Assembly (NCBI RefSeq): GCF_030317205.1
Contig: NZ_JASZYB010000001.1
Location: 930,001 to 994,000, forward strand
Origin: Variovorax sp. J2L1-78
GTDB taxonomy: Bacteria > Pseudomonadota > Gammaproteobacteria > Burkholderiales > Burkholderiaceae_C
Direction: 5' to 3'
Length of the DNA stretch: 64,000 nucleotides
Below the pieces are notes generated by a model, which made no database searches, was not told where the DNA came from, and saw nothing but the letters and a program-made list of their open reading frames with translations. The position numbers and the translations under genes were made by a program. Position 1 is the stretch's first letter. Every line of letters begins with the position of its first letter. Below, in pieces: positions 5,692 to 56,796 of this stretch.

Positions 5692-7062
5692 ATGGCTTCA
5701 TCCCCCCGGCAGTTCAAGCTCGGCGCCTTCCTCATGCAGACCGGCCATCACATCGCGGCCTGGCGCCACCCGGGGGCCCAGGCCGACGCCGGGGTCAACT
5801 TCCGCCACTACGTCGCGCTCGCGCAGAAGGCGGAGGCGGCCAAGTTCGACGCCATCTTCCTGGCCGATTCCGTCGGCGTACGCAACAGCGACTTGGCGTC
5901 TCTTTCGCGCACCGCACGCAGCGACCATTTCGAGCCGCTCACCTTGCTCGCCGCCATCGCGGCGCTCACCGAGCGCATCGGACTCATCGCCACGGTGTCG
6001 ACGAGCTTCAACGAGCCTTTCAACGTGGCGCGCAAATTCGCCTCGCTCGACCAGATCAGCGGCGGGCGCTCGGGCTGGAACCTGGTGACCTCCAGCGGGA
6101 CCGGCGAGGCGCAGAACTTCAACCGCGACACGCATTTCGAGCACGCGCTGCGCTACGAGCGTGCCGCGGAATTCCACGACGTGGTCACCGGCCTGTGGGA
6201 CAGCTGGGAGGACGACAGCTTCGTGCGCGACAAGGAGAGCGGGCGCTATTTCGACGAGCACAAGCTGCACGTGCTCGGCCACAAGGGCAAACACTTCTCG
6301 GTGCGCGGTCCGCTGAACGTCGCCCGGTCGCCGCAGGGACGGCCGGTGGTGGTGCAGGCCGGCGCTTCCGAAGCCGGCCGCGACCTCGCCGCACGTACGG
6401 CCGAGGTCATCTTCGTCGCACACCAGACCTTCGACGAGGCGAAGTCCTTCTATGCCGACATCAAGGAACGGCTGCCGCGCCATGGCCGCCACCCCGACGA
6501 CGTGAAGATCATGCCCGGCATCTTCCCGGTGGTCGGCCGCACGCAGGCGGAAGCCGAGGAGAAGTTCGAGCAGCTGCAGGCACTGGTGCATCCGGTGGTC
6601 GGCATCTCGCTGTTGTCGAACGTGATCGGGGGCTTCGACCTCTCCGGCCTGCCGGTCGACGGGCCGCTGCCCGTCCTGCCGGAGACGAACGGGCCCAAGA
6701 GCCGCCAACGCCTGCTGCTCGACCTGGCACGCCGCGAGAACCTCAGCATCCGCGAGCTCTACCTGCGCATCGCCGGCGCGCGCGGCCACCAGCAGGTGGT
6801 GGGCACGCCCGCCAGCATTGCCGACCAGTTGCAGCAATGGTTCGAGGAAGGCGGCGCCGACGGCTTCAACATCATGGCCCCGTGGTTCCCGGGCGGCCTG
6901 GACGACTTCATCGCGCTCGTGCTGCCGGAACTGCGACGGCGCGGCCTGTTCCGCACCGAGTACGAAGGTCGCACGCTGCGCGATCACCTGGGGCTGCGGC
7001 GGCCGGTGCATCCCGCGCGTGCGGCGCACGTGGAGCGCGAGGCACAGCCTGCCGCTGCCTGA
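5692..7062 (+). CDS. FMN-dependent monooxygenase, NtaA/SnaA/DmoA type
   Basis: A 456-residue luciferase-like oxidoreductase. The opening FKLGAFLMQTGHHIAAWRHP, the segment ISGGRSGWNLVTSSG and the C-terminal LFRTEYEGRTLRDHLGL are typical of the nitrilotriacetate / dimethylsulfide / dibenzothiophene-sulfone monooxygenase A-component family. Such enzymes use FMNH2 and O2 to cleave C-N or C-S bonds and need a separate flavin reductase, which is not in this window. It lies 62 nt after the ATPase gene, probably in the same transcript. Two more homologues are at 23990 and 47108. The substrate is unknown; an organosulfur compound is likely from context. Confidence 0.87.
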   Translation: MASSPRQFKLGAFLMQTGHHIAAWRHPGAQADAGVNFRHYVALAQKAEAAKFDAIFLADSVGVRNSDLASLSRTARSDHFEPLTLLAAIAALTERIGLIATVSTSFNEPFNVARKFASLDQISGGRSGWNLVTSSGTGEAQNFNRDTHFEHALRYERAAEFHDVVTGLWDSWEDDSFVRDKESGRYFDEHKLHVLGHKGKHFSVRGPLNVARSPQGRPVVVQAGASEAGRDLAARTAEVIFVAHQTFDEAKSFYADIKERLPRHGRHPDDVKIMPGIFPVVGRTQAEAEEKFEQLQALVHPVVGISLLSNVIGGFDLSGLPVDGPLPVLPETNGPKSRQRLLLDLARRENLSIRELYLRIAGARGHQQVVGTPASIADQLQQWFEEGGADGFNIMAPWFPGGLDDFIALVLPELRRRGLFRTEYEGRTLRDHLGLRRPVHPARAAHVEREAQPAAA

Positions 7063-7123
7063 GTGCGCACGAGCACGCGCTTCCAACACCACCACTTGCC
7101 CTTCCACACACCGCACACACGCC

Positions 7124-8731
7124 ATGCTTTCTTCCCTGCTCGAGAAATTCAAGTTCGACCACCGGCTGCTCCACCTGGCGCTGGCCGCCCTGCCCTTCAC
7201 GGCCATGGCGCAGACGAAGGCGCCCGCGCCGCTGGACGGCGGCACGCTGACCTATGCGGTGGTGCAGGAACCCACGTCGCTGGTCTCCTTCCTCGACACC
7301 AAGACCGACAACCGCAACGTGAGCGCCAAGGTCACCGAAGGCCTGCTGCGCTACGACGCGAAGTTCAACCCGCAGCCGCTGCTGGCGACCGCGTGGGAGG
7401 TGAGCGCGGATGGCCTGAAGTACAGCTTCAAGCTGCGCCCCGGCGTGAAATTCCACGACGGGCGCGACTTCACCGCCGAAGACGTGCGCTACGCGGTGCT
7501 GACGCAGAAGAAGCAGGGCCCGCGTGGGCGCATCACGCTGGCCAATGTGGAGCGTGTGGACGCACCCGACCCGCTCACCGCCGTGATCGTGCTGAGCAAG
7601 CCCGCGCCCTTCCTGCTGAAGGCACTGTCGTCGGCCGAGCTGCCGATCGTGCCGGCGCACCGCTACGCCGACGGCGAGCCGCTCGGCAGCCCCAACATCA
7701 CGGCGCCCGTGGGCACCGGCCCCTTCGTGTTCGAGGAATGGGTGCGTGGCAGCCACCTGGTGCTGCGCAAGAACCCGAACTACTGGCGCAAGGGCTTTCC
7801 GCACCTGGACCGCGTGATCGTGAAGTTCATTCGCGATCCGGCCGCCCTCTCCACCGCGGTGGAGACTGGCGAAGTCGACGTGGCCCAGGGGGTCGCGCTG
7901 GCCGACCTGGAGCGTCTGGCCGCGAACCCGAAGCTCAAGGTGGACGACAGCTACGACGGCTTCCTGAACAACGCGTCCTTCCTGGAGTTCAACGTCGAGA
8001 ACCCGGTGCTGGCGAAGCCCCAGGTACGCCACGCCATCGCGCAGGCCATCGACCGAAACTTCATCCGCAACACCATCTACTACAAGCGCACGGAGGTGGT
8101 GAATTCGCCCGTGCCGCGCGTGCTCGCCGACTACTACGACGACAGCACCTTCCACTACCCCTTCGACGTGGCGGCGGCCAACCGCCTGCTCGACGAAGCG
8201 GGCCAGCCCCGGCAGGCCAACGGCCAGCGCTTTTCGCTGCGGCTGAGCTACATCCCCGGCGCGGAGTTCAAGCGCACCACCGACTACCTGCGCTCGGCCC
8301 TGGCGCGCGTGGGCATCAAGGTCGAGGTGGTGGACGGCGACCTGCCCACCTTCTTAAAGCGCGTCTACACCACGCGCGACTTCGACATCAACATCAACGG
8401 CCTGGGCCGCCTGTTCGATCCGACGGTGGGCGTGCAGCGCTTCTACTGGGGCGACGGCGTGCGCAACCCGCTGATCTGGATCAACGGCGCGCGTTACGAC
8501 AACCCGCAGGTCGACGCGCTGTTCCGCCAGGCGGCCGTGGAGGTCGATGCCGGCCGGCGCGCCGTGCAGTTCAAGCAGATCCAGCAGATCGTCGGGCGCG
8601 AGCTTCCGGTGCTGCCGCTGGTCACCGTGCCCTCCATCCACGTGCTCAACAAGCGCGTGCACGATTTCTACAACAGCATCGACCTGGCGGCCGGCGACCT
8701 GGCCGACGCATGGGTCGAACCGAAGAAGTGA
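7124..8731 (+). CDS. ABC transporter substrate-binding protein, family 5 (DppA/OppA-like)
   Basis: A 535-residue periplasmic receptor. After a signal segment (residues about 12-29, ending AMAQ), the mature protein starts with GGTLTYAVVQEPTSLVSF and contains the family-5 block YSFKLRPGVKFHDGRDFTAE. Members bind peptides, glutathione, nickel chelates or opines. No Dpp-type permease is adjacent. The nearest permease set without its own receptor is the minus-strand cluster at 12873-16628, so this may be its receptor. Start chosen at the ATG giving the signal peptide. Amidase follows after 5 nt. Confidence 0.85.
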   Translation: MLSSLLEKFKFDHRLLHLALAALPFTAMAQTKAPAPLDGGTLTYAVVQEPTSLVSFLDTKTDNRNVSAKVTEGLLRYDAKFNPQPLLATAWEVSADGLKYSFKLRPGVKFHDGRDFTAEDVRYAVLTQKKQGPRGRITLANVERVDAPDPLTAVIVLSKPAPFLLKALSSAELPIVPAHRYADGEPLGSPNITAPVGTGPFVFEEWVRGSHLVLRKNPNYWRKGFPHLDRVIVKFIRDPAALSTAVETGEVDVAQGVALADLERLAANPKLKVDDSYDGFLNNASFLEFNVENPVLAKPQVRHAIAQAIDRNFIRNTIYYKRTEVVNSPVPRVLADYYDDSTFHYPFDVAAANRLLDEAGQPRQANGQRFSLRLSYIPGAEFKRTTDYLRSALARVGIKVEVVDGDLPTFLKRVYTTRDFDININGLGRLFDPTVGVQRFYWGDGVRNPLIWINGARYDNPQVDALFRQAAVEVDAGRRAVQFKQIQQIVGRELPVLPLVTVPSIHVLNKRVHDFYNSIDLAAGDLADAWVEPKK

Positions 8732-12872: not shown

Positions 12873-14603
12873 TCAGGCGGCCTTGCGCTGCTCCGCCCCG
12901 GGCACCGCTGCAATGAGGCTGCGCGTGTACGGGTGCTGCGGCCGCTCCCAGATGTCGCGATGGCTGCCGGTCTCGACGATCTGTCCCTTGTTCATCACCA
13001 TCACCCGGTCGGCGATGTAGCGCACCACCGAGAGGTCGTGCGAGATGAAGAGGTACGACAGGCCGAAGTCCTCCTTCAGCTCCACCAGCAGGTTCAGGAT
13101 CTGCGCCTGCACCGACACGTCGAGCGCCGACACCGGCTCGTCGAGCACGATCAGCGAAGGCCGCAGCACCAGTGCGCGTGCAATGCCGATGCGCTGGCGC
13201 TGCCCGCCCGAGAACTCGTTGGGGAAGCGTCGCCCCGCATCGGCCGGCAGGCCCACGCGCTCGAGCATGGCCGCGATGCGGTTGCGCCGCTCCACGCGGT
13301 CGGCCACACCGTGCACCTTGAGCACCGACTCGAGGATGTCGAACACGCTGCGCCGCGGGTTCAGCGACGCGTACGGGTCCTGGAACACCATCTGCACGCG
13401 GCGCCGCCACGGCTTGAGCGCCTTCTCGGACAGCGGCGCGATGTCGGTGCCGTCGAACACGATGCGGCCCGACGCCGGATTCACCAGGCGCAGCAGCGTG
13501 CGCGACAGCGTCGACTTGCCGCAGCCCGACTCGCCCACCAGCCCCACCGTCTCGCCCGCACGGATGTCGAAGGACACACCGTCCACCGCGTGCAGTACGC
13601 CACCACCGCGTTTCGGGTAGTCGGTGCGCAGGTCCTGCACCGACAGCAACGGCTCGCCAGCAGCGGCGCGCACGGGCAAGGCACGCACGGTCGAACTGGG
13701 CGCAGGCACATGCAGGGCAAAGTCGCGCACACCGGTCACCGGGTCGAGGCGCGTCTGGATCTCCGGCAGGCGCGCGTCGGCGTAGTGCAGCGCGCTGCCG
13801 GCGTGCAGCGACGCGCCCAGCAGGCCCCGGGTATAGGCATGCGACGGTGCGGCGAAGAGCTTCGACGTCGGCGCCTCCTCGACCTTCTCGCCGCCATACA
13901 TCACGGCCACACGGTCGGCCCATTGGGACACGAGGCCCAGGTCGTGCGTGATGAGCAACAGCGCCATGTCCAACTCGCGGCGCAGGCCGTCGAGTAGTTC
14001 GAGAATCTGCGCCTGGATGGTCACATCGAGCGCGGTGGTCGGCTCGTCGGCCACCAGCAGGCGAGGCTTGCACGCCACGGCCATGGCGATCATCACCCGT
14101 TGGCGCTGGCCGCCCGAGAGGTTGTGCGGATGGTCGTCGATGCGCTGGTGCGGCTCGGGGATGCGCACGAGGTCGAGCAGTTCGATGGCGCGCTTGCGGG
14201 CGGCGAGGGCCGACAGCTTTTCGTGCCGGCGCAGGATCTCCTCGATCTGCGCGCCGATGGTGTGCACCGGGTTCAGCGAGGTCATCGGCTCCTGGAAGAT
14301 CATCGCGATCTCACGGCCGCGCACGTCGCGTAGCTCGGCAGGCGACAGCGCGAGGATGTCGTGTCCGTCGAAGTGGATATTGCCGCGCAACACGGCACCG
14401 GGTGCAAGCAGCCGGAGCAACGCGAGTGCGGTGGTCGACTTGCCGCAGCCCGACTCGCCCACCAGCGCAAGCGTCTCGCCGCGCTGCAGCGTCAGGTCGA
14501 GACCGCGCACGGCCTGAATCGGGCCGCTCGATCCATGGAAGAAGACATCAAGGCCGCGCACCTCGAGCAGCGGTGCTGCGGGTTCGACTCGTTCGATCGT
14601 CAT
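12873..14603 (-). CDS. Dipeptide-type ABC transporter, fused double ATPase (DppD-DppF)
   Basis: A 576-residue protein with two complete nucleotide-binding domains in tandem. Walker A motifs are at about 49-57 and 358-366 (both GESGCGKST), signatures are NLSGGQRQR (162-170) and FSGGQRQR, and Walker B motifs are LLVADEPTTALD and LIVLDEPVSALD. This is the fused form of DppD and DppF, as in GsiA. It energises the permeases encoded just upstream (DppC stop 2 nt from this start). An ATG at 14603 was preferred to one 33 nt upstream, which overlaps the permease gene. No receptor gene is in this operon. Confidence 0.9.
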   Translation of the reverse strand: MTIERVEPAAPLLEVRGLDVFFHGSSGPIQAVRGLDLTLQRGETLALVGESGCGKSTTALALLRLLAPGAVLRGNIHFDGHDILALSPAELRDVRGREIAMIFQEPMTSLNPVHTIGAQIEEILRRHEKLSALAARKRAIELLDLVRIPEPHQRIDDHPHNLSGGQRQRVMIAMAVACKPRLLVADEPTTALDVTIQAQILELLDGLRRELDMALLLITHDLGLVSQWADRVAVMYGGEKVEEAPTSKLFAAPSHAYTRGLLGASLHAGSALHYADARLPEIQTRLDPVTGVRDFALHVPAPSSTVRALPVRAAAGEPLLSVQDLRTDYPKRGGGVLHAVDGVSFDIRAGETVGLVGESGCGKSTLSRTLLRLVNPASGRIVFDGTDIAPLSEKALKPWRRRVQMVFQDPYASLNPRRSVFDILESVLKVHGVADRVERRNRIAAMLERVGLPADAGRRFPNEFSGGQRQRIGIARALVLRPSLIVLDEPVSALDVSVQAQILNLLVELKEDFGLSYLFISHDLSVVRYIADRVMVMNKGQIVETGSHRDIWERPQHPYTRSLIAAVPGAEQRKAA

Positions 14604-14604
14604 C

Positions 14605-15594
14605 TCAACGCCCCCTGAGCCGCGGGTTGAACGCATCGTTCAGTCCATCGCCCACGAGATTGAGCGCCAGCACTGTGAACACGATCGCCGCACCAGGCAA
14701 CGCCGTGAGGTACCACGCCGTGCGCAGCAGCTCGCGCCCCTGCCCGATCATGCTGCCCCACGACACCGCATTCGGGTCGCCCATGCCGAGGAAGGACAGC
14801 GCCGACTCGATGAGGATGGCGCTCGCCACCAGCACCGAGGTAGTCACGATGACCGGCGGCAAGGCGTTGGGCAGCATCTCCTGGAAGATGATGCGTGCAT
14901 GGCTAAAGCCCTGGCTTCGGGCCGCCAGCACGAACTCGGTTTCGCGCAGCGCCCTGAACTCGGCGCGCACCAGCCGCGCGATCACCGGCCACGACGCCAG
15001 ACCAATGGCGAACACGATCACCGGCACCGAGGGTTGGCCGATGGCCACCACCACGATCACGAACAGGAACGACGGCATGGTCTGGAACAACTCGGTGATG
15101 CGCACCAGCACATCGTCGATGCGGCCGCCGAAGTAGCCGGCGGTGGCGCCCACGAGCACACCGATCACCAGGCTCAGCACGGCCGCCACCACGCCCACGG
15201 AGAGCGAGATGCGCGCGCCGTGCGCGATACCGGCAATCACGTCGCGGCCCAGCGAATCGCTGCCCAGCGGATAGGCAGCATCCTGGCCCGGCCACAGCAG
15301 CGGCGGCGCCACCATGTCGAGCGGGTCACCGGGATAAAGCCACGGCGCCAGCAACGCCAGCACGAGCATGAAAACGAGCAGCACGACGCCGGCCACGGCG
15401 GCCGGGTTGCGCAGAAAGGCGCGCAGCGCGGCATGTCGGCTGGAGACGGGCTTGGCGTCCACCGCGGCCTTCGCGGCAGGGACAGCCGGTGCAAGAGGTC
15501 CGGCCGGTGGTTCGGGGCGACGCGCCGCAGGCGGCGTCGGTGGATGTGCCGGCGGGTTCGCGAGCGCGGCATCGAGTGTGAAAGGTGTGGACAT
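14605..15594 (-). CDS. ABC transporter permease, DppC-like
   Basis: A 329-residue inner-membrane permease. The first 60 residues are Pro/Ala-rich and poorly conserved. After that comes the DppC N-terminal motif (FLRNPAAVAGVVLLVFMLV), PLGSDSLGRDV, and the coupling loop RSQGFSHARIIFQEMLPN. The C-terminus ends GDGLNDAFNPRLRGR, as in DppC/OppC. It pairs with DppB upstream and the fused ATPase downstream. Confidence 0.9.
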   Translation of the reverse strand: MSTPFTLDAALANPPAHPPTPPAARRPEPPAGPLAPAVPAAKAAVDAKPVSSRHAALRAFLRNPAAVAGVVLLVFMLVLALLAPWLYPGDPLDMVAPPLLWPGQDAAYPLGSDSLGRDVIAGIAHGARISLSVGVVAAVLSLVIGVLVGATAGYFGGRIDDVLVRITELFQTMPSFLFVIVVVAIGQPSVPVIVFAIGLASWPVIARLVRAEFRALRETEFVLAARSQGFSHARIIFQEMLPNALPPVIVTTSVLVASAILIESALSFLGMGDPNAVSWGSMIGQGRELLRTAWYLTALPGAAIVFTVLALNLVGDGLNDAFNPRLRGR

Positions 15595-15644: not shown

Positions 15645-16628
15645 TCAGCGCACCTGGATCCGCGGATCGAGCCACGCATGCAGCAGGTCTACCAGCATGT
15701 TGGCCACGATGACCAGCAGCGACGACATCAGCAGCACGCCCAGCAGCACCGTGTAGTCGCGCCCGGCCACCGAGTCGAAGGCCAGCCGGCCGAGACCGGG
15801 CCAGCTGAACACCGTCTCGACCACCACCGCGCCGCCCAGCAGCGTGCCGAAGTGCATGCCCGCCACGGTCGTCACCGGGATCAGCGCATTGCGCAGGATG
15901 TGGCGCAGGTTGATGCGCCACGGGTGCAGACCCTTGGCTTCGGCCGTGCGCACGAAATCCTGTCGCGCCACCTCGAGCATCGCGGCCCGCGTGAGGCGCG
16001 AGAAGATGGCGATGTAGAAGCCCGCCATGGCCATCGCCGGCAGCACCAGGTGCCGCGCCACGTCGATGGCATGCGTCCAGCCCGTGTAACCCGCGCCGAT
16101 GCTTTCACTCCCGCCGGTGGGCAGCCAGCCCAGGTGTACCGAGAACAGCACGATCGCCATCAAGCCCAGCCAGAAGCCCGGCGTGGAATACAAGAGCAGC
16201 GCCGCCACCGAGAGCGTGCGGTCCTGCCAACGGCCGACGCGCGTGGCCATGAAGGTGCCCGCCGCGATGCCGATGGCCAGCGCGAAGGCCAGCGCCGTGA
16301 GCATCAGCAGCAGCGTGTTGCCCAGCCGCGCGCCGATCAGGGCAGTCACCGGCATGTTGTAGCGCGGCGAGACCCCGAGGCTCAAATGCGCCAGGTTGTT
16401 CAGGTAGGCGCCCAGTTGATGCAGCACCGGCAGGTCGAGCCCGAAGTGCGTGCGCAACTGCGCCATGCTTTCCGCGGTGGCCGAGCCCGATTCGGCCGCG
16501 ACCACGTCGGCGGCGTCGCCCGGGATCCACTGCATCAGCAGGAAATTGAGCAGGATCACGCCGATGACGGTCGGCACTGCCTGCCACGCGGTGCGCACCA
16601 GCGTGCGGCTTGCGCTGCGCAGGTTCAC
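15645..16628 (-). CDS. ABC transporter permease, DppB-like
   Basis: A 327-residue DppB/GsiC-type permease: the first membrane segment AVPTVIGVILLNFLLMQWIPGD, the EAA-like loop RTAEAKGLHPWRINLRHILR and the terminal LLHAWLDPRIQ are all typical. A GTG start at 16628 is chosen because it overlaps the stop of the upstream dioxygenase-rhodanese gene (GTGA), showing translational coupling between the importer and that enzyme. Confidence 0.88.
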   Translation of the reverse strand: MNLRSASRTLVRTAWQAVPTVIGVILLNFLLMQWIPGDAADVVAAESGSATAESMAQLRTHFGLDLPVLHQLGAYLNNLAHLSLGVSPRYNMPVTALIGARLGNTLLLMLTALAFALAIGIAAGTFMATRVGRWQDRTLSVAALLLYSTPGFWLGLMAIVLFSVHLGWLPTGGSESIGAGYTGWTHAIDVARHLVLPAMAMAGFYIAIFSRLTRAAMLEVARQDFVRTAEAKGLHPWRINLRHILRNALIPVTTVAGMHFGTLLGGAVVVETVFSWPGLGRLAFDSVAGRDYTVLLGVLLMSSLLVIVANMLVDLLHAWLDPRIQVR

Positions 16629-18847
16629 GACGCCGCCGTCTCGCGCGGCGCGACCAGGCGGATGCCCACGTCGCCTTCGCGCGCCAACTGCGCCACCAGG
16701 CCGATCTCCCAGTCGAGGTACTGCTGGAAGCCGGCGTCGCGCTGGGCCACGTCGGCATGCGCGTAGGGGCTGTACCAGTGGTCGTCGTCGCCGGTCAGCA
16801 CGCCCTCCGCACCGGTCGCGGTGGGCAGCCGGGCGGCGATCCAGGCCTGGGTGCCGCCCGCGAGGGCGCGCACCGTGCGGCCAGTACGGGCTGCGAGCTC
16901 GGCCGCCGCCGTGCGCGCGAGCACGCCGTCGGACGAGGTGAGCACGATGAGCTGCGACGCAGGCAGGTCGGCCGTGAATTCCTGGAGCCGGTCGGGCACC
17001 GCGAAGCGTGCGCCTGCGACATGCCGTCGCTCGAAAGCCGCGCGGCGCTCCACGTCGAACACCACCGCCGTGCCGGCTTCCAGCGCCGCGGCCGCCTCGC
17101 GCAGCGCGATGTCCGGGGTGAAGGCACGCAGCGACAGCACGCGCACGGGTTCGGGCCCGAGCACCAGCAACGGCAAGGCGGGCGGCGACAGCACGAACAC
17201 CTCGTGCCCGCCCAGTTGCGCGAGCCATGCACCGGTGGTCAGCGCACGCACGCCGTCCCAGTCGGCCAGCACGATGCGCGCACGCCGCGTGCCCACGTAT
17301 TCGTCGGTGGCCTGCACCAGCTGGCCGCCGGGCGCCCAGCGCCAGCCTTCCAGGTGGCCGGCCTCATATTCCTGGCGGGTGCGCACGTCGAAGCGGTAGA
17401 GCGAGCGCTCGTCGGACTCGGCCTCGAAGCGCGCGAGCGTGGCCGCGTCGATGCGGCGCACGCCGGCGCGTGCGGCCACGTCCTCGGCCCGTGCGCGCGC
17501 GCTCTTGCGCGTCGCCTCGCCCGGCTCGGGCAGCGGCGCGGCGCGGCCATGGGCCAGCTCGCGCCCCGCCAGCAGCCAAGCCATGGTGCCGTCCTTCAAC
17601 GACACCACCGGGTTCGGAATGCCCGCGTCGATGAGCGTCTGGGCGCCCACGATGCTGCGCGTGCGACCGGCACAGTTCACCACCACGAGCGTCTCGGGCC
17701 GCGGCGCGAGTTCCTGGATGCGGTAGACCAGTTCGGCGCCCGGCAGGCTGTGGGCGAACGGCAGGCTGAAGTCGGCGAATTCCTCCGGCGTGCGGCTGTC
17801 GACCACCACGATGTCGTCGCCGCGCTCCACGCGTTCGTGCAGCTCGTCGACCGAGATCCACGGCGTGTGCTTCTCGTGCTCGATGACCTCGCCGAAGGCC
17901 TTGCTCGGCACGTTGCTGCCGCTGAAGAGTTCGTAGCCCGCGGCGGCCCAGCCTTCGGTACCGCCCGCCAGCACCGACACGTTGCGCCAGCCCAGGCGCA
18001 CCAGCTTGGCGGCGGCTTCATGGGCCAGCGATTCGTCGGCGTCGGCCAGCACGATGCGGGTGCTGCGGCGCGGCACCAGGCGGTCGATCTGCACCTCCAG
18101 CCGCCACAGCGGCGCCGAGGCGGCCAGTAGGATGTGGCGGCGCACGAAGACGCCGGTCTCGCGCACGTCGAGCAGCGCGATCTCCTCGCCGTCGGCCAGC
18201 GCCGCCTTCAGCGCCTGTGGCGTGATGGCCGGGTGGCGAATGGTCTTCGGTGGCGCGAAGTGGCGGAAACTGCCACCCGCTGTGCCTTCGAAGACCACGC
18301 GCTTGTCGAGGCGTTCGAGCGCGCGGCCGTAGAAGTGCAGATGGCGGCCGTCCTGGCCGCCGATGAGTTCGATGGTGTGCACGTCGTCCGGCAGCAGCAC
18401 CACGGCGCTGCCCGAGGCCACGTCGACGGTGCCGGTGGGCACCAGCGCGTCGCGCGACGCGTCGGCGGTCTTTTCGCGGCGGTAGAGCACGTTGCGCTCG
18501 TTGCCTTCCACCCCGGCGATCACCGCCCAGGTCGTGTGGTCGTGCGGCGGCTGGGCCTTGCCCGCGAGGCCGGCCGACAGGTACAGCGCCAAGCCGCCGT
18601 CGGCGTCCTCCGCCAGACGGTAGACCTGTGCGGGGCGGGTCGCATCGACGGGGAAATGGGCGGCCGGGAACAGCGCCCTTTGCTGGCCGAGTGCGATCAG
18701 CGCGTCGGCCACGGTCTGCAGGGCGCGCTTGTCCGCAGCGCCAGCGAGCAGACCGCGCGCCTGCGCCAGGAAGGCGTCGATGGCGCGCGCACGGGCGCTG
18801 GCAATGTCGTTGCCCGCGGTGTCCACGGGGAGGTCGGTGAGGCTCAT
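16625..18847 (-). CDS. Cysteine-dioxygenase-like domain fused to four rhodanese domains
   Basis: A 740-residue cytoplasmic protein. Residues about 40-195 look like a type I thiol dioxygenase: His102 and His104 in PHDHTTWAVIAG, His157 in DDVHTIELIG and a His171-x-Tyr173 pair match the three iron-binding His and the His/Tyr active-site pair of cysteine dioxygenase. Four rhodanese domains follow (about 205-308, 328-432, 465-560, 572-675). Only the second has the catalytic cysteine (Cys392 in NCAGRTRS); the equivalent positions are Asp269, Asp529 and Ser638 in the others. It probably oxidises an imported thiol to a sulfinate and transfers sulfur. It is the first gene of an operon with a Dpp-type importer. 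Confidence 0.82.
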   Translation of the reverse strand: MSLTDLPVDTAGNDIASARARAIDAFLAQARGLLAGAADKRALQTVADALIALGQQRALFPAAHFPVDATRPAQVYRLAEDADGGLALYLSAGLAGKAQPPHDHTTWAVIAGVEGNERNVLYRREKTADASRDALVPTGTVDVASGSAVVLLPDDVHTIELIGGQDGRHLHFYGRALERLDKRVVFEGTAGGSFRHFAPPKTIRHPAITPQALKAALADGEEIALLDVRETGVFVRRHILLAASAPLWRLEVQIDRLVPRRSTRIVLADADESLAHEAAAKLVRLGWRNVSVLAGGTEGWAAAGYELFSGSNVPSKAFGEVIEHEKHTPWISVDELHERVERGDDIVVVDSRTPEEFADFSLPFAHSLPGAELVYRIQELAPRPETLVVVNCAGRTRSIVGAQTLIDAGIPNPVVSLKDGTMAWLLAGRELAHGRAAPLPEPGEATRKSARARAEDVAARAGVRRIDAATLARFEAESDERSLYRFDVRTRQEYEAGHLEGWRWAPGGQLVQATDEYVGTRRARIVLADWDGVRALTTGAWLAQLGGHEVFVLSPPALPLLVLGPEPVRVLSLRAFTPDIALREAAAALEAGTAVVFDVERRAAFERRHVAGARFAVPDRLQEFTADLPASQLIVLTSSDGVLARTAAAELAARTGRTVRALAGGTQAWIAARLPTATGAEGVLTGDDDHWYSPYAHADVAQRDAGFQQYLDWEIGLVAQLAREGDVGIRLVAPRETAAS

Positions 18848-18991: not shown

Positions 18992-20005
18992 ATGACGACA
19001 CACTTCCCCCTCCTTGCCCCGCGCCGCGCCATGTTGGGCGCGCTGACCCTCGCTTTCACCGGTTTCGGTGCCCTCCTGCCTCTGGCGCACGCCGACGACG
19101 ACGCGGCCGGCTTTCCGTCGAAGCCGGTGCACATCGTGGTGCCCGTGGCGACAGGCGGCAGCGCCGACAAGCTCACCCGGCTGATCGCGCAGGGCCTGAC
19201 CGAACGCTGGGGCCAGTCGGTGGTGGTCGAGAACCTGGCCGGCGCCAGCGGCACCATCGGCGCGGCCCGGGTGGCCAAGGCGCCCGCCGATGGCTACACG
19301 CTGCTGCAGCAGGGCGAAGGCCTGACGCTCAACGGCATTCTTTTCGACCGCCTGCCCTACGACGGCCAGAAGGCCTTCACGCCGGTCATCCAGGCGGTGG
19401 TGAACCCGCAGATCCTGGTGGTCAATCCCAAGACCGGCATCGCCGATTTCCGCAGCTACCTGGCACGTGCCAAGGCGCAGCCACAGTCGATCAGCCTGGG
19501 CCTGCCCGGCAACGGCGGCATCGCCCATGTCGCGCACGAGATGATCGCGCAGGACACCGGGGCGCAGGTCAACTACATCCCCTACTCCGGCGGTGGTCCG
19601 GCCACGGTGGACGTGCTGGCCGGCCATGTGGACGCCACGCTGATCACGCTCGCGGCCGTGACCGACCATGTGCGCGCCGGCAAGCTGCGTGCGCTGGCCG
19701 TGACCACCGCCTACCGATCAAGCGCGCTGCCCAACGTGCCGACCATGGCCGAGGCCGGCCTGCCCGGCTTCTCGGTGGAAAGCTGGCAAGGCTACTTCGC
19801 GCCCGCCGGCACACCCGCCGCGGTGGTGGCAAAGATCAACCGCGACATCCAGGCCGTGATCTCCACGCCCGAGACCCGCGCCAAGCTCGAGGACATGGGC
19901 TTCAAGGTGACCGGCGGCACGCCCGCGGACCTGGCCCGCACGCTGGCCGGCGAGCGCCTGCGCTACGCCAAGGCCATCCAGACGGCGGGCATCGCCCTGC
20001 GCTGA
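18992..20005 (+). CDS. Bug family tripartite tricarboxylate-type receptor
   Basis: A 337-residue periplasmic binding protein of the Bug/TctC family. An RR-containing signal sequence (APRRAMLGALTLAFTGFGA) is followed by FPSKPVHIVVPVATGGSADK, the standard Bug N-terminus, and the central NYIPYSGGGPATVDVLAGHVD. No TctA/TctB membrane genes are nearby, which is normal for this greatly expanded family in Burkholderiales. It is divergent from the dioxygenase-rhodanese gene and shares a regulatory region with it. No clear ribosome site precedes the ATG; an alternative ATG at 19031 lacks one too. Confidence 0.85.
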   Translation: MTTHFPLLAPRRAMLGALTLAFTGFGALLPLAHADDDAAGFPSKPVHIVVPVATGGSADKLTRLIAQGLTERWGQSVVVENLAGASGTIGAARVAKAPADGYTLLQQGEGLTLNGILFDRLPYDGQKAFTPVIQAVVNPQILVVNPKTGIADFRSYLARAKAQPQSISLGLPGNGGIAHVAHEMIAQDTGAQVNYIPYSGGGPATVDVLAGHVDATLITLAAVTDHVRAGKLRALAVTTAYRSSALPNVPTMAEAGLPGFSVESWQGYFAPAGTPAAVVAKINRDIQAVISTPETRAKLEDMGFKVTGGTPADLARTLAGERLRYAKAIQTAGIALR

Positions 20006-35072: not shown

Positions 35073-35196
35073 CCGGATGCGGTGGGCCGCTGCCATCCAT
35101 AGACGATTGCTTCATTAAGAAGGAAGAAATCGGTTGTTCGCGTCATACGGACTGCGCCAGAGAATGGCCGGCCTTGCTACCACGCCCCAGAACAAC

Positions 35197-36177
35197 ATGA
35201 ACTTCCAACAACTGCGCTCGGTGCGCGAGGCGGTCCGCTGCGGCTTCAACCTCACCGAAGCCGCGCACGCGCTTCATACGTCCCAGCCGGGCGTCAGCCG
35301 ACAGATCCGCGAGCTGGAAGAGGAACTCGGTGTTTCGCTTTTCGCGCGGGCCGGCAAGCGCCTGACCGGCCTCACCTCGCCGGGCAGCCACCTGCTGCCG
35401 ATCATCGAACGCGTCCTTCTGGAAAGCCACAACCTGCGCCAGGCCGGCCAGGAGTTCGCGGGCCAGCAGGACGGGCAACTCTCGGTGGCCGCGACGCACT
35501 CGCAGGCGCGCTATGCCATGCCGCTGGCGGTGCAGGAATTCCGCGCCCTGTTCCCGGGCGTCAAGCTGCATCTGCACCAAGGCTCGCCCAAACAGATCGC
35601 GCAGATGCTGCTCGACGGCGAAGCCGAGGTCGGCATCGCCACCGAGGCGCTGGGCGACTACCCGCAACTCGTCGCCCTGCCCTGCTACCGCTGGACCCAT
35701 TCGGTGATCGTGCCCCCCGGCCATCCGCTGCTCGACGCGCCACTGACCCTGGAGACGCTGGCGCAGTACCCGCTCATCACCTACGACACCGGCTTCACCG
35801 GCCGCACGCGCATCGACGCCGCCTTCGACGATTCGGGCATCGCACCCCAGATCGTGCTGACGGCCATGGACGCCGACGTCATCAAGACCTACGTGCAGCT
35901 GGGCATGGGGGTGGGCATCGTCGCGGGCGTGGCCTACGAGACCGAGCGCGACACGCAGCTGCGCGCGGTGGACGCGGGCCCGCTGTTCGGCATCAACACG
36001 ACCAAGCTGGCGGTGCGTCGCGGCAGCTACCTGCGCGGCTACGTCTATGCCTTCATCGAAGCCTTTGCGCCGACGCTCACCCGCAGCGTGGTGGATGCCG
36101 CGCTCGACGTCGATCCTGCGCCCGGCGCGGTCCGCGCGGCGCCCCAGCGCGGCACCGGGGCGCCGGCGGTGCACTGA
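35197..36177 (+). CDS. CysB-like LysR family transcriptional regulator
   Basis: A 326-residue DNA-binding protein. The first residues MNFQQLRSVREAVRCGFNLT and the helix-turn-helix TSQPGVSRQIRELEEELGV are very similar to CysB/Cbl/SsuR, which sense sulfur status (acetylserine or adenosine phosphosulfate) and activate sulfonate genes. The C-terminal effector domain contains ITYDTGFTGRTRIDAAFD. ATG 35197 was chosen since the CysB family begins at this Met. It is the best local candidate to control the promoters described here. A Bug gene follows after 16 nt. Confidence 0.88.
   Translation: MNFQQLRSVREAVRCGFNLTEAAHALHTSQPGVSRQIRELEEELGVSLFARAGKRLTGLTSPGSHLLPIIERVLLESHNLRQAGQEFAGQQDGQLSVAATHSQARYAMPLAVQEFRALFPGVKLHLHQGSPKQIAQMLLDGEAEVGIATEALGDYPQLVALPCYRWTHSVIVPPGHPLLDAPLTLETLAQYPLITYDTGFTGRTRIDAAFDDSGIAPQIVLTAMDADVIKTYVQLGMGVGIVAGVAYETERDTQLRAVDAGPLFGINTTKLAVRRGSYLRGYVYAFIEAFAPTLTRSVVDAALDVDPAPGAVRAAPQRGTGAPAVH

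Positions 36178-50486: not shown

Positions 50487-50490
<4 letters not shown>
49546..50490 (-). CDS. Dipeptide-type ABC transporter ATPase, DppF-like
   Basis: A 314-residue ATPase. Walker A GESGCGKST, signature EFSGGQRQRIGIARAL, Walker B LIVCDEAVSALD, where the usual DEP is DEA. The C-terminal Cys-rich oligopeptide-transporter motif is present (CRFHPRCPQAVDRC, then CHFA). It works with DppD encoded upstream (start/stop overlap of 4 nt) as an ATPase pair. Confidence 0.9.
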
Positions 50491-51512
<1,022 letters not shown>

Positions 51513-51516
51513 GCGC

Positions 51517-52425
51517 CTACCTCCGCCGCAGGTGCGGGTTCATGGCGTCGTTCAGCCCTTCGCCCAGCAGATTGAAGGCCAGCACCGTGACGACGATCGC
51601 CAGGCCCGGCAGGCCGCAGATGTACCAGGCATCGGTGACCTGCTCGCGGCCGCTGCCGATGATGGTGCCCCAGCTCATCACGTTGGGGTCGCCCAGGCCG
51701 AGGAAGGCCAGTGCCGCTTCGGTCTGGATCGCATGCGCCACGGCCAGGGTCGACACCACGATCACCGGCGGCAGTGCGTTCGGCAGGATCTGCGTGAGGA
51801 TCAGCCGCGCATGGCTCATGCCCGCGGTGCGCCCGGCCAACACGAACTCGCGCTCGCGCAGCTGCAGGAACTGCGAGCGCACCAGCCGCGCGGTGGGCGG
51901 CCACGACACGATGCCGATGGCGAACACCACGGTCGCCACCGACGGCTTGAAGAGCGCGACCAGCACAACGGCCAGCACGAAGCTCGGCACGGTCTGGAAC
52001 ACCTCGATCACGCGCAGCAGCACCGCGTCGACCCGGCCCCGGTAGTAGCCGGCCAGCGCGCCGATGGTGATGCCGACGAAGGCCGAGATGAAGGTGCCGA
52101 CCAGCCCGATCAGCAGCGAGACGCCGGCGCCCGACACCAGCCCGGTCGCCAGGTCGCGGCCCATGAAGTCGGTGCCCAGCGGATGCTCGGCGTCCTCGCC
52201 GGGCCACAGCATCGGCGCACCGGCCATGTCCCACGGGTCGCCGGGAAAGAACCAGCGGCCGACCGTCGCGGTCGCGACCACGAGCAGCATGAGCACCAGC
52301 CCGACCAGCGCCGGACGGTTGCGTGCGACCTCGCGGGCGAAGCCTGCCGCGCGCGCGAGGCGACCGCCGTCGTAGCGGACGGGCGTCACGGCGCCGTGCG
52401 TGCCATTCACCAGGACCGGCTTCAT
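51517..52425 (-). CDS. ABC transporter permease, DppC-like
   Basis: A 302-residue inner-membrane permease with EVARNRPALVGLVLMLLVVA at the N-terminus, PLGTDFMGRDL, GYYRGRVDAVLLRVIEVFQT and a C-terminal GEGLNDAMNPHLRRR. These match DppC/OppC/GsiD. Start overlaps the DppB-like stop (4 nt). Related to but distinct from the DppC-like gene at 14605-15594. Confidence 0.9.
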   Translation of the reverse strand: MKPVLVNGTHGAVTPVRYDGGRLARAAGFAREVARNRPALVGLVLMLLVVATATVGRWFFPGDPWDMAGAPMLWPGEDAEHPLGTDFMGRDLATGLVSGAGVSLLIGLVGTFISAFVGITIGALAGYYRGRVDAVLLRVIEVFQTVPSFVLAVVLVALFKPSVATVVFAIGIVSWPPTARLVRSQFLQLREREFVLAGRTAGMSHARLILTQILPNALPPVIVVSTLAVAHAIQTEAALAFLGLGDPNVMSWGTIIGSGREQVTDAWYICGLPGLAIVVTVLAFNLLGEGLNDAMNPHLRRR

Positions 52426-53432
52426 GCGTGTGCTCCGGCGGATGCGAGCTGCACGCGCGGGTCGAGCCAGGCGTAGAGCACGTCCACGAGGATGTTGATG
52501 AGCGTCACGAGGATCGAACTCAGCAGCAGGATCCCCAGCAGCAGGTTGAAGTCGCGCGCCAGGATCGCCTCGAAGGCCAGGCGGCCGAGCCCCGGCCAGC
52601 TGAAGACCGACTCGACCAGCACCGCGCCGCTCAGCAGCGACGCGATCTGGAAGCCCAGCATGGTCACCAGCGGCAGCAAGGCGTTGCGCAGCGTGTGCAC
52701 GAGCGTGATGCGCGTCTCGCCAGCGCCCTTGGCGCGGGCGGTTCGGATGAAGTCGGCGCCGTACAACTCCAGCATCGCGCTGCGCACCAGCTTGGCGTAG
52801 ACCGCCAGGTAGAAGGTCGCGAGCGTCACCGCCGGCAGCACCGCATGGCGTGCGACGTCGACCACCCAGGCGAAGCCGGTGTGGTTCGCGCTGATGTCCA
52901 CCATGCCGCCAGAAGGCAGCCAGCCCAGCCGCGCCGAGAACAGCACGATCGCCATCAGCCCGAGCCAGAAAGTCGGCATCGCATACGCGGCCAGCACGAA
53001 GAGCGAGGCGAGGTTGTCGACCCAGGTGTGCACCTTCAAGGCCGACAGCACGCCCAGCGTGACGCCGAGCACCAGCGCGATGACGATGGCCGCGACCATC
53101 AGCAGCAGCGTGGCCGGCAGCCGGTCGACCACCAGGTCAAACACCGGCATGTTCTGGCGGAACGAGAAGCCGAGGTCGAGCGTGGCGATGTTCCAGAGGT
53201 AGTGGCCCAACTGCAGGTACAGCGGCTGATCGAGCCCGAAGCTCGCGCGCAGCTGCGCCATGTACTCGGGCGTGGCGGCGCCGGCCTCCCCGGCCATCAC
53301 GTCGACCACGTCGCCCGGCGCGACCTGCAGGATCAGGAAGTTGAGCAGCGCGATGCCGAACACCACCGGCAGCACCTGCAGCAGCCGCTTCTTGAGGAAG
53401 CCCCAGAGCGGGGACGCCGTGCGCCGGCTCAT
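52422..53432 (-). CDS. ABC transporter permease, DppB-like
   Basis: A 336-residue permease. KRLLQVLPVVFGIALLNFLI, RTARAKGAGETRITLVHTLR (coupling loop) and the terminal LVDVLYAWLDPRVQ fit DppB/GsiC. ATG 53432 overlaps the stop of the receptor gene (4 nt), chosen over an upstream in-frame start inside that gene. Confidence 0.9.
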   Translation of the reverse strand: MSRRTASPLWGFLKKRLLQVLPVVFGIALLNFLILQVAPGDVVDVMAGEAGAATPEYMAQLRASFGLDQPLYLQLGHYLWNIATLDLGFSFRQNMPVFDLVVDRLPATLLLMVAAIVIALVLGVTLGVLSALKVHTWVDNLASLFVLAAYAMPTFWLGLMAIVLFSARLGWLPSGGMVDISANHTGFAWVVDVARHAVLPAVTLATFYLAVYAKLVRSAMLELYGADFIRTARAKGAGETRITLVHTLRNALLPLVTMLGFQIASLLSGAVLVESVFSWPGLGRLAFEAILARDFNLLLGILLLSSILVTLINILVDVLYAWLDPRVQLASAGAHA

Positions 53433-55072
53433 TTCTTCGCGTCGAGCCAGGCGTCGCCGTACGACGCGAAGAGGCCGTCGCCCTGCAGCACCTGCTTGTG
53501 CAGGCGCGCGGTCGACACCGTGACCCAAGTCTGCTCAACCAGGTCGAGCACCGGCAGGTCTTCCTGCACGATCTGCTGCCATTCCTTGATGAGCGCCTTG
53601 CGCTTGGCCACGTCGGCCTCGCCGCCGGCGGCTTCCATGATGCGGTCGAGCGCGGGGTTGGAATAGCCCGAGCCGTTGGTCCACGGCGCGCCCTTGACGA
53701 TGTTTTGGGTCCAGAACAGCCGCTGTACGCCCAGCGTCGGGTCGGGCAGGCGGTGCAGGCTGGAGATCATCAGGTCGTAGTCCTGGTCGTTGAAGATGCG
53801 GCGCAGGTAGGTGGCAGTGTCGCCCCCGCGCAGTTCCACGTCGACGCCCACGCGCGCCAGCGACTGCTTGATGAATTCCGCCGGGCGCGTCGCCGTGACG
53901 CCGCCGCCGGCGTCGAAGTCCAGCGTGATCTTCAGCCGCTTGCCATCCTTGCCCGGCTTCAATCCCGCCTCGTCCAGCAGCGCCGCCGCCTTCTTGAGGT
54001 CGTAGGGGTACTGGCGCGTTTCGGGCGAGTAGTAGTTGACGACCGACGACGGCACCGGGCCGGTCGCCGGCTTGCCGTAGCCGAGGAACACCACCTTGAG
54101 CAGCGCATTGCGGTCGACGGCATGCGCGAAGGCCTGGCGCACGCGCTTGTCCGACAGGGCCGGCCGGCGCACGTTGAACTGGGTGAGGAAGATGGTCGCG
54201 AGGTAGCGGCCGTCGTCCAGGTTGATCGTGTACTTCGCCTTGTCGCTGAACTTGTTGAGGTTCGACAACGGGATGCTCGAGCCGAGCGCCACGTCGAGCT
54301 CGCCGGCCTCCAGCGCCACAGTGCGCGCGGCCGCGTCGGGAATGAACTTGAACACCACGCCGTCGAGGTAGGGCTGCTGCTCGCCGCCCGGCCCACGGCC
54401 CCAGTAGTTCGGGTTGCGCTCCAGCCGCACGTGGCTGCCCTTGACCCATTCCTTGAAGACGAAGGGGCCGGTGCCCACCGGCGCGTTGTTCGCCGGGTTC
54501 TTCAGCACGTCGGTGCCTTCGTAGAGGTGCTTCGGCAGCACCTGCGCACCGTAGGTGTTGATGTAGTTGAGCAGGTACGGCGCGGGCGACGACAGGCGCA
54601 CGATCACCGTGTGCGGGTCGGGCGTGTCGACGGCGGTCACGTTGGCGAAGGCGGCGCGGCCGAAGGGATGCAGCGGTTTCCACACCTCCAGCAGCGTGTA
54701 CTTCACGTCGGCCGCGGAGAAGTCCTTGCCATCGTGCCACTTCACGCCCTTGCGCAGATGGAAGGTCACGGTCAGCCCGTCGGGCGCGACCTCCCACGAG
54801 GTCGCGAGCTCGGGCACCGGCTGCAACTTCAGGTCGTAGCTCACCAGCCCTTCGAGCACCTTGCTCGACACCTGGCCGATGTTCATCGTGGTGATGAAGG
54901 CCGAGGTCAGCAGCGTCGGCTCGGGCGAGACCGCGACGTTGAGGATGCCGCCGCGCACCGGCTTCGTGCCGGTGGTCTGCGCGAAGGCCGAAAGGGCGAA
55001 CAGGCTGTCGGCCAGCGCGATGGCGCCCAGCGTGGCCGTGGAATGGATGAAGTGTCGTCGGTTCGAATGCAT
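53429..55072 (-). CDS. ABC transporter substrate-binding protein, family 5 (copy B)
   Basis: A 547-residue periplasmic receptor. Signal sequence with RR (SNRRHFIHSTATLGAIALAD, ending AFAQ). The mature part has the family-5 block FHLRKGVKWHDGKDFSAADV, GTGPFVFKEWVKGSHVRLER and the ending GLFASYGDAWLDAKK. It is a close paralogue of the next gene upstream. Start/stop overlap links it to DppB. It delivers a peptide-like or organosulfur solute to the Dpp-type permease. Confidence 0.88.
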   Translation of the reverse strand: MHSNRRHFIHSTATLGAIALADSLFALSAFAQTTGTKPVRGGILNVAVSPEPTLLTSAFITTMNIGQVSSKVLEGLVSYDLKLQPVPELATSWEVAPDGLTVTFHLRKGVKWHDGKDFSAADVKYTLLEVWKPLHPFGRAAFANVTAVDTPDPHTVIVRLSSPAPYLLNYINTYGAQVLPKHLYEGTDVLKNPANNAPVGTGPFVFKEWVKGSHVRLERNPNYWGRGPGGEQQPYLDGVVFKFIPDAAARTVALEAGELDVALGSSIPLSNLNKFSDKAKYTINLDDGRYLATIFLTQFNVRRPALSDKRVRQAFAHAVDRNALLKVVFLGYGKPATGPVPSSVVNYYSPETRQYPYDLKKAAALLDEAGLKPGKDGKRLKITLDFDAGGGVTATRPAEFIKQSLARVGVDVELRGGDTATYLRRIFNDQDYDLMISSLHRLPDPTLGVQRLFWTQNIVKGAPWTNGSGYSNPALDRIMEAAGGEADVAKRKALIKEWQQIVQEDLPVLDLVEQTWVTVSTARLHKQVLQGDGLFASYGDAWLDAKK

Positions 55073-55113
55073 CGGAAATTGTTCGCAGAGAGAAAGAGGA
55101 AGGTGCGTGGCGC

Positions 55114-56733
55114 TCAGTCGGCCGACAGGAGATAGGCGTCGGCCAGCGAGGCATAGAGTCCGTCGCCCTGTGCCCGCACCTTGCGGTAGCGGCTGCTGGA
55201 GACGGTGGTCCAGTCGAGCTCGATCAGGTCGAGGATCGGTACCTCTTCCTGCACGATGGCCTGCCATTCGTCGACGAGGCTGCGGCGTTTGGCCGGGTCG
55301 AGCTCGACGGCAGCCGCTTCCATCACCCGGTCGAGTTCGGGGTTGACGTAGCCGGCGCCGTTGGTCCACGGCACGCCCTTGGCGATGTTCTTGCTCCAGT
55401 ACCAGCGCTGCACGCCCAGGCTGGGGTCCGGCAGGTTGTGCAGGCTGGTGAGGAACAAGTCGTAGTCGGCATCGCCGAACACGCGGCGTATGTAGACGCC
55501 GGCGTCGGACGCGCGCAGTTCGAGGTCGACACCCACCCGGCCGTAGTACTGCTTCATGAACTCGGCAGTCCGCGTGGCTTCGAGCGAGCCGCTGCCGTAG
55601 TCGAGCGTCAGCTTCAGCCGCTTGCCGTCCGCCTTGCGCGGGAGGCCGGCGGCGTCGAGCAGCGCCTCGGCCTGCTTCGGGTCGTGCCTGTACTGGCGGC
55701 CCTTGGCGCTGTGGAAGGCCGGCACCGTCGACGGGATCGAACTGCTCGCGACCTTGCCGTAGCCACCGAACACCACGCGCAGCAACGCCTCGCGGTCCAG
55801 CGCATACATGAGCGCCTGCCGCACCCGCTTGTCGGCCAGCGCGGGCTTGCGCACGTTGACCGTGGCCAGCTGGATCGATGCGAGGTAGCTGCCGTCGGTC
55901 GTGTTGATGGCGAACTTCTTCTTGTCCGAGAACTGCTTGAGGTTCGACACCGGGATGTTCGAGGCCAGCGCCACCTGCACCTCGCCGCTGGCCAGCGCGA
56001 CCGAGCGCGCGGCGGCATCGGGGATGAACTTGAACACCACGCCGTCGAGGTACGGCAGCCCGGGGCGCCAGTAGTTCGGGTTGCGCTCCAGTGCGATGTG
56101 ACTGCCGCGCACCCATTCCTTGAAGCGGAACGGGCCGGTGCCGATGGGCGCCGTGTTCGCGGGGTTCTTGAGGAGGTCGGTGCCTTCGTAGAGGTGCTTG
56201 GGCACGACCTGCGCGCCGTACACGTTCAGGAAGCTCAGCAGGTAGGGCGTCGGCCGCGACAGCCGCAGGATGGCGGTGTGCGCGTCGGGCGTATCGACCG
56301 CCTGCACCGACGCGTAGGCCAACCGGCCGCCGGGGTGAATCTTCTGCCACACGTTGAGCAGCGAGAAGGCCACGTCGGCCGAGGTGAAGTCGTGCCCGTC
56401 GTGCCACTTCACGCCGCGGCGCAGGCGCAGCGTGAGCGACAGGCCGTCCGGCGCGAAGGCCCACGACTCGGCCAGCTCGGGTTGCGGCTGCAGCTTGTCG
56501 TCGAACCACACCAGGCCCTCGCTGATCTTGCCCGCGATCATCGTGACCTGCATGGTCGTGAGGAAGGCGGCGGTGATGATCTGCGGCTCCGGCGCCAGCG
56601 AGATCACCAAGGCGCCGCCGCGTTGTGGCGACGCCGACTGCGGCTGCTGCGCGTGGCCCGTGCCGAGCATGGGCAAGGTGGCAGCAGCGAGGCTGCCCTG
56701 CAGCAACAGACGCCGATTCAATGAGGACACCAT
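55114..56733 (-). CDS. ABC transporter substrate-binding protein, family 5 (copy A)
   Basis: A 539-residue receptor, tandem paralogue of the downstream gene: shared blocks include GTGPFRFKEWVRGSHIALER, RNPNYWRPGLPYLDGVVFKF and LEHIP-like SNIPVSNLKQFSDKKKF. Signal region SSLNRRLLLQGSLAAATLP with RR. ATG 56733 is chosen since CGGAGA precedes it; ATG 56757 would add eight residues. First gene of a seven-gene operon (A, B, DppB, C, D, F, VOC protein). Confidence 0.87.
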   Translation of the reverse strand: MVSSLNRRLLLQGSLAAATLPMLGTGHAQQPQSASPQRGGALVISLAPEPQIITAAFLTTMQVTMIAGKISEGLVWFDDKLQPQPELAESWAFAPDGLSLTLRLRRGVKWHDGHDFTSADVAFSLLNVWQKIHPGGRLAYASVQAVDTPDAHTAILRLSRPTPYLLSFLNVYGAQVVPKHLYEGTDLLKNPANTAPIGTGPFRFKEWVRGSHIALERNPNYWRPGLPYLDGVVFKFIPDAAARSVALASGEVQVALASNIPVSNLKQFSDKKKFAINTTDGSYLASIQLATVNVRKPALADKRVRQALMYALDREALLRVVFGGYGKVASSSIPSTVPAFHSAKGRQYRHDPKQAEALLDAAGLPRKADGKRLKLTLDYGSGSLEATRTAEFMKQYYGRVGVDLELRASDAGVYIRRVFGDADYDLFLTSLHNLPDPSLGVQRWYWSKNIAKGVPWTNGAGYVNPELDRVMEAAAVELDPAKRRSLVDEWQAIVQEEVPILDLIELDWTTVSSSRYRKVRAQGDGLYASLADAYLLSAD

Positions 56734-56796
56734 GGCGGTCGAAATCTCCGTGGACATGCTGAGCCCACCGGGACAGCGATCGAATGAAAGCGCCGA

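Follow-up and report, generated by a model that had tools for sequence, protein, structure and literature searches.

The 64,000-nucleotide stretch of the Variovorax sp. J2L1-78 genome analysed here (contig NZ_JASZYB010000001.1, positions 930,001 to 994,000; hereafter the window) carries a minus-strand gene in which a thiol dioxygenase and four rhodanese modules are joined in one protein of 740 amino acids (aa). This fusion is a real, conserved and widespread joining of two known enzyme types, the unfused genes of which are already known as neighbours. The frame runs uninterrupted from an ATG at 18847 to a stop at 16625-16627. In matches against solved structures, residues 16-191 corresponded to the mercaptosuccinate dioxygenase (Msdo) 8VNI (E 1.9e-32) and residues 212-730 to 1YT8, a four-rhodanese 'thiosulfate sulfurtransferase' of Pseudomonas aeruginosa (E 1.9e-120). 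Pfam detected four rhodanese stretches in the protein, and its dioxygenase half had no match in the Pfam or NCBIfam scans. The open reading frame (ORF), the Pfam result and the two structural matches bear out the initial annotation of this DNA, which had placed a dioxygenase fused to four rhodaneses at 16625-18847.

The protein shares 83-93% identity with nine orthologues, and the ratio of nonsynonymous to synonymous substitution rates (dN/dS) of the whole gene against four Variovorax orthologues was 0.11-0.28. Purifying selection acts on every domain of the fused protein among the Variovorax orthologues. A frameshift or other artefact as the origin of the fused frame is ruled out by the orthologues together with the dN/dS values. 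The full-length AlphaFold model, computed from an alignment of 42 fused homologues that contained fused proteins only, had a predicted local distance difference test (pLDDT) value of 92.4 and a predicted template modelling score (pTM) of 0.92. Structure prediction had been proposed in the initial annotation as a check, and the model supports a dioxygenase cupin.

The two halves of the fused protein

By its predicted fold and its residues, the N-terminal half is a thiol dioxygenase cupin of the cysteine dioxygenase (CDO) type. The model matched 8VNI with Z 27.1 over 190 residues, 3-mercaptopropionate dioxygenases (3MDO) with Z 21-22 and cysteine dioxygenases with Z 18-19. In an alignment to Av3MDO (residue numbering from PMC8050391), H102, H104 and H157 correspond to H90, H92 and H142, and H171 and Y173 to H157 and Y159, which confirms the assignment of these five residues in the initial annotation. 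Conservation was counted over 87 fused dioxygenase parts and 81 fused rhodanese parts, many of them close relatives. H102, H104, H157 and H171 are invariant in the 87 sequences, Y173 is kept in 86, and R183 in all 86 that have a residue at this position; loss of the His ligands in homologues, named beforehand as evidence against a dioxygenase, did not occur (87/87 retained). The earlier likening to the cysteine dioxygenase active site holds for the three-His site and the His/Tyr pair, but not for the Ser of the Ser-His-Tyr triad of CDO and 3MDO, in place of which both the fused and the Msdo-type dioxygenases have a His (H169 in the fused protein).

A new point is that the fused dioxygenases form a single clade with an aliphatic residue at the position of the 3MDO Gln and the Msdo Arg. 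On the dioxygenase tree, the 32 fused rows all grouped together, along with one contig-end row (Shimodaira-Hasegawa-like approximate likelihood ratio test, SH-aLRT, 96), apart from Msdo 8VNI, locus L019 (described below) and other stand-alone relatives. At the Gln63/Arg66 position, Val, Ile or Leu occurs in 85 of the 87 fused sequences, Arg in 33 of 37 stand-alone Msdo-like ones and Gln in the 3MDO-type partners. Membership in Msdo was rejected, as the fused dioxygenases lie outside the 8VNI clade and V75 replaces Arg66, Arg66 being taken as the defining feature of Msdo by assumption of this analysis. Membership in the Gln-type 3-mercaptopropionate dioxygenases was likewise rejected on V75 at the Av3MDO Gln63 position and on clade placement. 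In Av3MDO, Arg168 holds the substrate carboxylate, which makes no significant contact with Gln63 (PMC8050391). Because the Gln/Arg selector is absent and R183 is retained, the alignment suggests a thiol with one carboxylate as the substrate, and this depends on a shift of one column for the equivalence of R183 and Arg168.

The C-terminal half is predicted from its fold and loop to be a four-rhodanese sulfurtransferase of the type of PA2603, the protein of 1YT8. The model superposed on 1YT8 with Z 55.8, a root-mean-square deviation (rmsd) of 2.1 over 523 aa and a template modelling (TM) score by target of 0.94, and Foldseek also matched the two. Only module 2 has a catalytic Cys (C392), and its CAGRTR loop is invariant in the 81 fused rhodanese parts. 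The alignment thus agrees with the initial annotation, which had placed Cys392 in module 2 alone and Asp269, Asp529 and Ser638 in the others; these replacements also proved conserved (Table 1), except that Asp529 is Cys in two of the 81. In L098, one of these two, the Cys lies in the loop LACDTGTRSI, at the position of residue 529 of the window protein; the Cys of module 3 in the two proteins may mark a second active site.

In module 4, Cys is present in 31 of 52 unfused relatives, so that the Ser at this position goes with the fused lineage. Constraint was strongest on modules 2 and 3 (dN/dS 0.03-0.14) and mostly weakest on module 4 (up to 0.45). Because module 3 has no catalytic Cys and is nevertheless as constrained as module 2, its conservation suggests a binding or structural task, and among the Cys-less modules it may be the best candidate for a binding role.

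Table 1. Features of the fused gene and of its neighbours, in window positions
Feature	Coordinates	Strand	Evidence
Fused gene (thiol dioxygenase and four rhodanese modules), 740 aa	16625..18847	-	ORF, structure matches, orthologues, AlphaFold pLDDT 92.4
Thiol dioxygenase cupin domain (aa ~15-196)	18260..18805	-	8VNI E 1.9e-32; Z 27.1, rmsd 1.8 over 190 aa
Iron-ligand codons H102 and H104 (motif HDHTTW)	18536..18544	-	87/87 fused homologues
Iron-ligand codon H157	18377..18379	-	87/87 fused homologues
Codons H171 and Y173 (outer-sphere pair)	18329..18337	-	H 87/87, Y 86/87 fused
Codon R183, probable counterpart of Av3MDO carboxylate-binding Arg168 (alignment one column off)	18299..18301	-	R 86/86 fused, 37/37 stand-alone
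Codon V75, at Av3MDO Gln63 / Msdo Arg66 position	18623..18625	-	V/I/L 85/87 fused; R 33/37 stand-alone Msdo-like
Rhodanese module 1 (aa ~208-305), Asp269 at Cys position	17933..18226	-	D269 80/80
Rhodanese module 2 (aa ~325-430), catalytic loop C392-A-G-R-T-R	17558..17875	-	C392 and loop 81/81 fused; C 52/52 unfused
Codon of catalytic Cys392	17672..17674	-	Alignment, conservation
Rhodanese module 3 (aa ~465-555), Asp529 at Cys position	17183..17455	-	D 79, C 2 of 81; dN/dS 0.03-0.14
Rhodanese module 4 (aa ~578-678), Ser638 at Cys position	16814..17116	-	S 80/81 fused; unfused C 31, S 11, A 8 of 52
DppB-type permease gene, start overlapping fused stop (GTGA)	15645..16628	-	
DppC-type permease gene	14605..15594	-	
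DppD-DppF fused ATPase gene, GsiA-like	12873..14636	-	
Divergent TctC/Bug-type binding protein	18992..20005	+	Pfam TctC 8.8e-62; commonest fused-gene neighbour in Comamonadaceae

Distribution, unfused pairs and phylogeny

Fused copies were found in J2L1-78 itself and in 9 of the 90 further genomes from this genus, in 7 of 250 genomes of the family sample and in 4 of 398 of the phylum sample, the family and phylum counts including J2L1-78. Relatives of the dioxygenase half were also sought across 84,980 species genomes, and of the 80 best loci 79 are fused, some of them cut by contig ends, and the remaining one (L064) stops at a contig end; the set was picked by similarity to the fused dioxygenase, and 79 of 80 is not a natural frequency. 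The dioxygenase clade of the J2L1-78 protein is nearly always fused. The genera with the fusion are Variovorax, Cupriavidus, Ralstonia, Delftia, Acidovorax, Paracidovorax, Comamonas, Curvibacter, Pseudorhodoferax, Achromobacter and Bordetella, and it is also present in metagenome-assembled genomes of Alphaproteobacteria. These four scans reject the possibility that the architecture is confined to the J2L1-78 genome. It had initially been called unusual, which is true of the literature searched but not of nature, where it recurs across Beta- and Alphaproteobacteria.

The same two enzymes also occur as neighbouring genes. In the relative and phylum sets, a dioxygenase gene lay inside the 1.5 kb flank of 33 of 47 unfused four- or three-rhodanese genes, nearly always directly upstream and on the same strand, and the pairing recurs with three dioxygenase types. 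In P. protegens, 3mdo and tst are apparently one transcription unit (PMC12947264), and the msdo genes of V. paradoxus B4 and Advenella lie in a cluster that also contains a cystathionine beta-lyase and a rhodanese gene (PMC5373536). The J2L1-78 genome has three couples: the fused gene, L002 with the dioxygenase directly upstream of it, and L003 with L004. This third couple lies about 27-36 kb from the fused gene, in one gene run that also includes a cystathionine beta-lyase homologue and an amino-acid ATP-binding cassette (ABC) transporter. L002 (C1:2283655-2284962) is a 467-aa relative that matches the query at 185-557 and then at 690-734 and is without module 4; in the phylum sample, family f87 contains relatives about 430 aa long. 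At two loci, L090 (7314-12136) and L044 (7115-12199), the fused gene adjoins an unfused four-rhodanese gene in opposite directions, and in L090 the latter is accompanied by its own Arg-type dioxygenase.

The rhodanese tree requires five changes between the fused and unfused states, and for this reason one old fusion, followed by a few splits or exchanges, is likely, if unproven. The unfused pairs L020 and L023 lie in the fused region of this tree, with ORFs that overlap in different frames. In L019 (1453-3675; G076, same genus), Msdo-like dioxygenase and four-rhodanese ORFs share a frame and are separated by a single TGA. Full-span matches like L019, with internal stops, were seen in G014 (C1) and G085. 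At L017 (G069), the rhodanese part falls within the fused clade and the flank has no dioxygenase; this genome is 58% complete, and either loss or an assembly gap may be the reason.

It is also a new point that the rhodanese phylogeny tracks the dioxygenase type. With the tips labelled by partner dioxygenase, four changes suffice for the three states (minimum two), and all 12 Gln-type tips, including 1YT8, which was labelled by assignment from PA2602, fall within one clade of 18 that contains no other type. The tracking may reflect joint inheritance as one operon, or a specificity of the rhodanese for the substrate or product of the dioxygenase.

Proposed function and its alternatives

Since relatives carry as neighbouring genes the two enzymes that are fused here, the fusion suggests a joint role for thiol oxidation and sulfur transfer in the scavenging of sulfur. 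We tentatively favour, at a little short of even confidence, a bifunctional aerobic thiol-sulfur enzyme that turns a thiol into a sulfinate and passes the persulfide sulfur of C392 to the sulfinate or to released sulfite; we infer its activities, substrate, direction of transfer and domain coupling. To judge from fold and residues, the Fe(II) cupin would use O2 to oxidise the SH group of a small thiol to a sulfinate, the substrate probably being a carboxylate-bearing thiol bound by R183. Sulfane sulfur would be carried as a persulfide on C392 of module 2, as its intact loop indicates, and could then move either to the organosulfinate to form a thiosulfonate or to released sulfite to form thiosulfate. 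Reactive sulfite would be kept low and sulfur returned in assimilable form, and the Cys-less modules 1, 3 and 4 may serve as scaffold or substrate-binding surfaces. Sulfite and the sulfinate hypotaurine are both known acceptors of sulfane sulfur from sulfurtransferases (PMC7545470), and sulfinosuccinate breaks down spontaneously to succinate and sulfite (PMC5373536).

Several points weigh against this proposal. Many dioxygenase and rhodanese genes are not adjacent, no activity measurement for any fused protein was found in the literature searched, and the tracking of dioxygenase type can also be explained by joint operon inheritance. Deletion of tst, the PA2603 homologue of P. protegens, had no significant effect on the level of 3-mercaptopropionic acid (PMC12947264), so that the rhodanese part is dispensable for thiol oxidation in that organism. 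An unchanged thiol level in the mutant is expected if the rhodanese acts after the dioxygenase, but it is also compatible with a complete lack of coupling.

Rhodanese chemistry is reversible in direction, and the rhodanese might act before the dioxygenase, stripping sulfane sulfur from an organic persulfide, a polysulfide or a thiosulfate-type compound and leaving a free thiol. The tracking of dioxygenase type in the rhodanese tree fits this order equally well, and several loci carry a cystathionine beta-lyase and an L-cystine-type (TcyN-like) ABC ATPase, a possible route from disulfide to persulfide. However, no persulfide-generating enzyme constantly adjoins the fused gene, and none adjoins it in the window; we consider this order rather unlikely. 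The two halves may instead be functionally separate, fused as operon neighbours with equal dosage as the only effect. The unfused pair is common, the thiol level was unchanged after tst deletion (PMC12947264), and the frames of L019 are parted by one in-frame TGA only, which makes fusion an easy event; but the fusion has persisted across Beta- and Alphaproteobacteria with all domains under purifying selection among the Variovorax orthologues, and the pairing has recurred with three dioxygenase types, and we give separate halves about one chance in five. It seems improbable that the rhodanese part supplies sulfur elsewhere, for example to make the molybdenum cofactor of an enzyme that oxidises sulfite, a proposal put forward for V. 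paradoxus B4 (quoted in PMC5373536). The rhodanese modules do have a weak similarity to the MoeB-type rhodanese part (NF006444), but the score is far below the cut-off, at about one quarter of it, and no molybdenum genes were found among the typed recurrent neighbours.

A further possibility, which we regard as doubtful, is that the fused clade represents a third class of specificity among the bacterial thiol dioxygenases, neither Gln- nor Arg-type, in which the sulfinate is handed directly to the rhodanese site of the same chain. If true, the protein would act as dioxygenase and sulfurtransferase in one, turning a thiol, O2 and sulfane sulfur into an organic thiosulfonate or thiosulfate, and this third class would give the orphan PA2603 family its function.

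Gene neighbourhood and known systems

The gene context of the fusion points to sulfur scavenging, as indicated by the sulfur genes of the window (SsuD-like and NtaA/DmoA-like monooxygenases, two SfnB-like genes and sulfonate-transport genes) and by a CysB-family regulator at 35134-36174. Positions 1-40000 are dense in sulfur-scavenging genes, including SsuA-type binding proteins, SsuB/C-like genes and a MetQ-like lipoprotein. At four loci from close Variovorax, one genome contributing two of them, the fused stop overlaps the DppB start as ATGA. In the 80-locus sample, DppBCDF adjoins the fused gene only in a Variovorax subset and on the contigs L050 and L064, and in L040 it follows after one intervening gene. 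At other loci the fused gene stands next to a TctC-type binding protein, to a regulator of the CysB type, or to an amino-acid ABC transporter accompanied by a cystathionine beta-lyase and a stand-alone dioxygenase; a CysB-family regulator lies directly upstream in 14 of 19 Achromobacter loci. Dpp was therefore rejected as a general partner, its adjacency being lineage-specific in these loci. The initial annotation had the fused gene head a Dpp operon with translational coupling, and the GTGA overlap agrees with this here, but not beyond the loci just named; oxidation of a Dpp-imported thiol as a general feature was not borne out, given the other neighbours outside the Variovorax subset. The Dpp genes that follow the fused gene lack an adjoining binding protein of their own. 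A second Dpp/Opp-type importer set at 50490-56757 (minus strand) has its own binding protein at 55117-56757, and another Dpp/Opp-type binding protein lies at 6818-8728 (plus strand).

No description of this thiol dioxygenase-rhodanese fusion was found in the open-access papers searched, and the fused protein in CP063167.1 is annotated only as 'sulfurtransferase'. Because this dioxygenase clade is missed by Pfam and NCBIfam and is so annotated, the thiol-oxidising capacity in Burkholderiales is probably under-counted.

Among known systems, the persulfide dioxygenase-rhodanese fusions (PRF) likewise join an iron dioxygenase to a rhodanese, with an analogous logic of oxidation and sulfane transfer. 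The PRF dioxygenase has a metallo-beta-lactamase fold, whereas the dioxygenase half here is a cysteine-dioxygenase-type cupin by its 8VNI matches, and identity with PRF was rejected. EanB of anaerobic ergothioneine biosynthesis is rhodanese-type, forms a persulfide on Cys412 and gave a partial Foldseek match to the fused protein, but it is without a dioxygenase, and superposition over the whole chain was poor (TM 0.15-0.18, rmsd up to 20). Msdo 8VNI of V. paradoxus B4 is the closest solved dioxygenase (37% identity, Z 27.1), with the same His ligands and His-x-His-x-Tyr motif; however, it is a stand-alone protein of another clade, and its Arg66 is replaced by Val, Ile or Leu in the fused clade.

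The 3mdo-tst pair of Pseudomonas, PA2602 (3-mercaptopropionate dioxygenase, 4TLF) and PA2603 (1YT8), has the same two parts in the same order, and PA2603 is 44% identical to the fused rhodanese part over 523 aa (Z 55.8). In contrast to the fusion, PA2602 and PA2603 are two separate proteins, their Gln-type dioxygenase is 18-23% identical to the fused one, and module 4 has a Cys in 1YT8 and a Ser in the fused clade. The structure of PA2603 has been available since 2005; the literature searched gives no function for it, and in the one genetic test that was found the thiol level did not change. The fusion, the pairing with three dioxygenase types and the tracking in the rhodanese tree turn this into a concrete question, whether the sulfurtransferase acts on the substrate or on the product of the dioxygenase.

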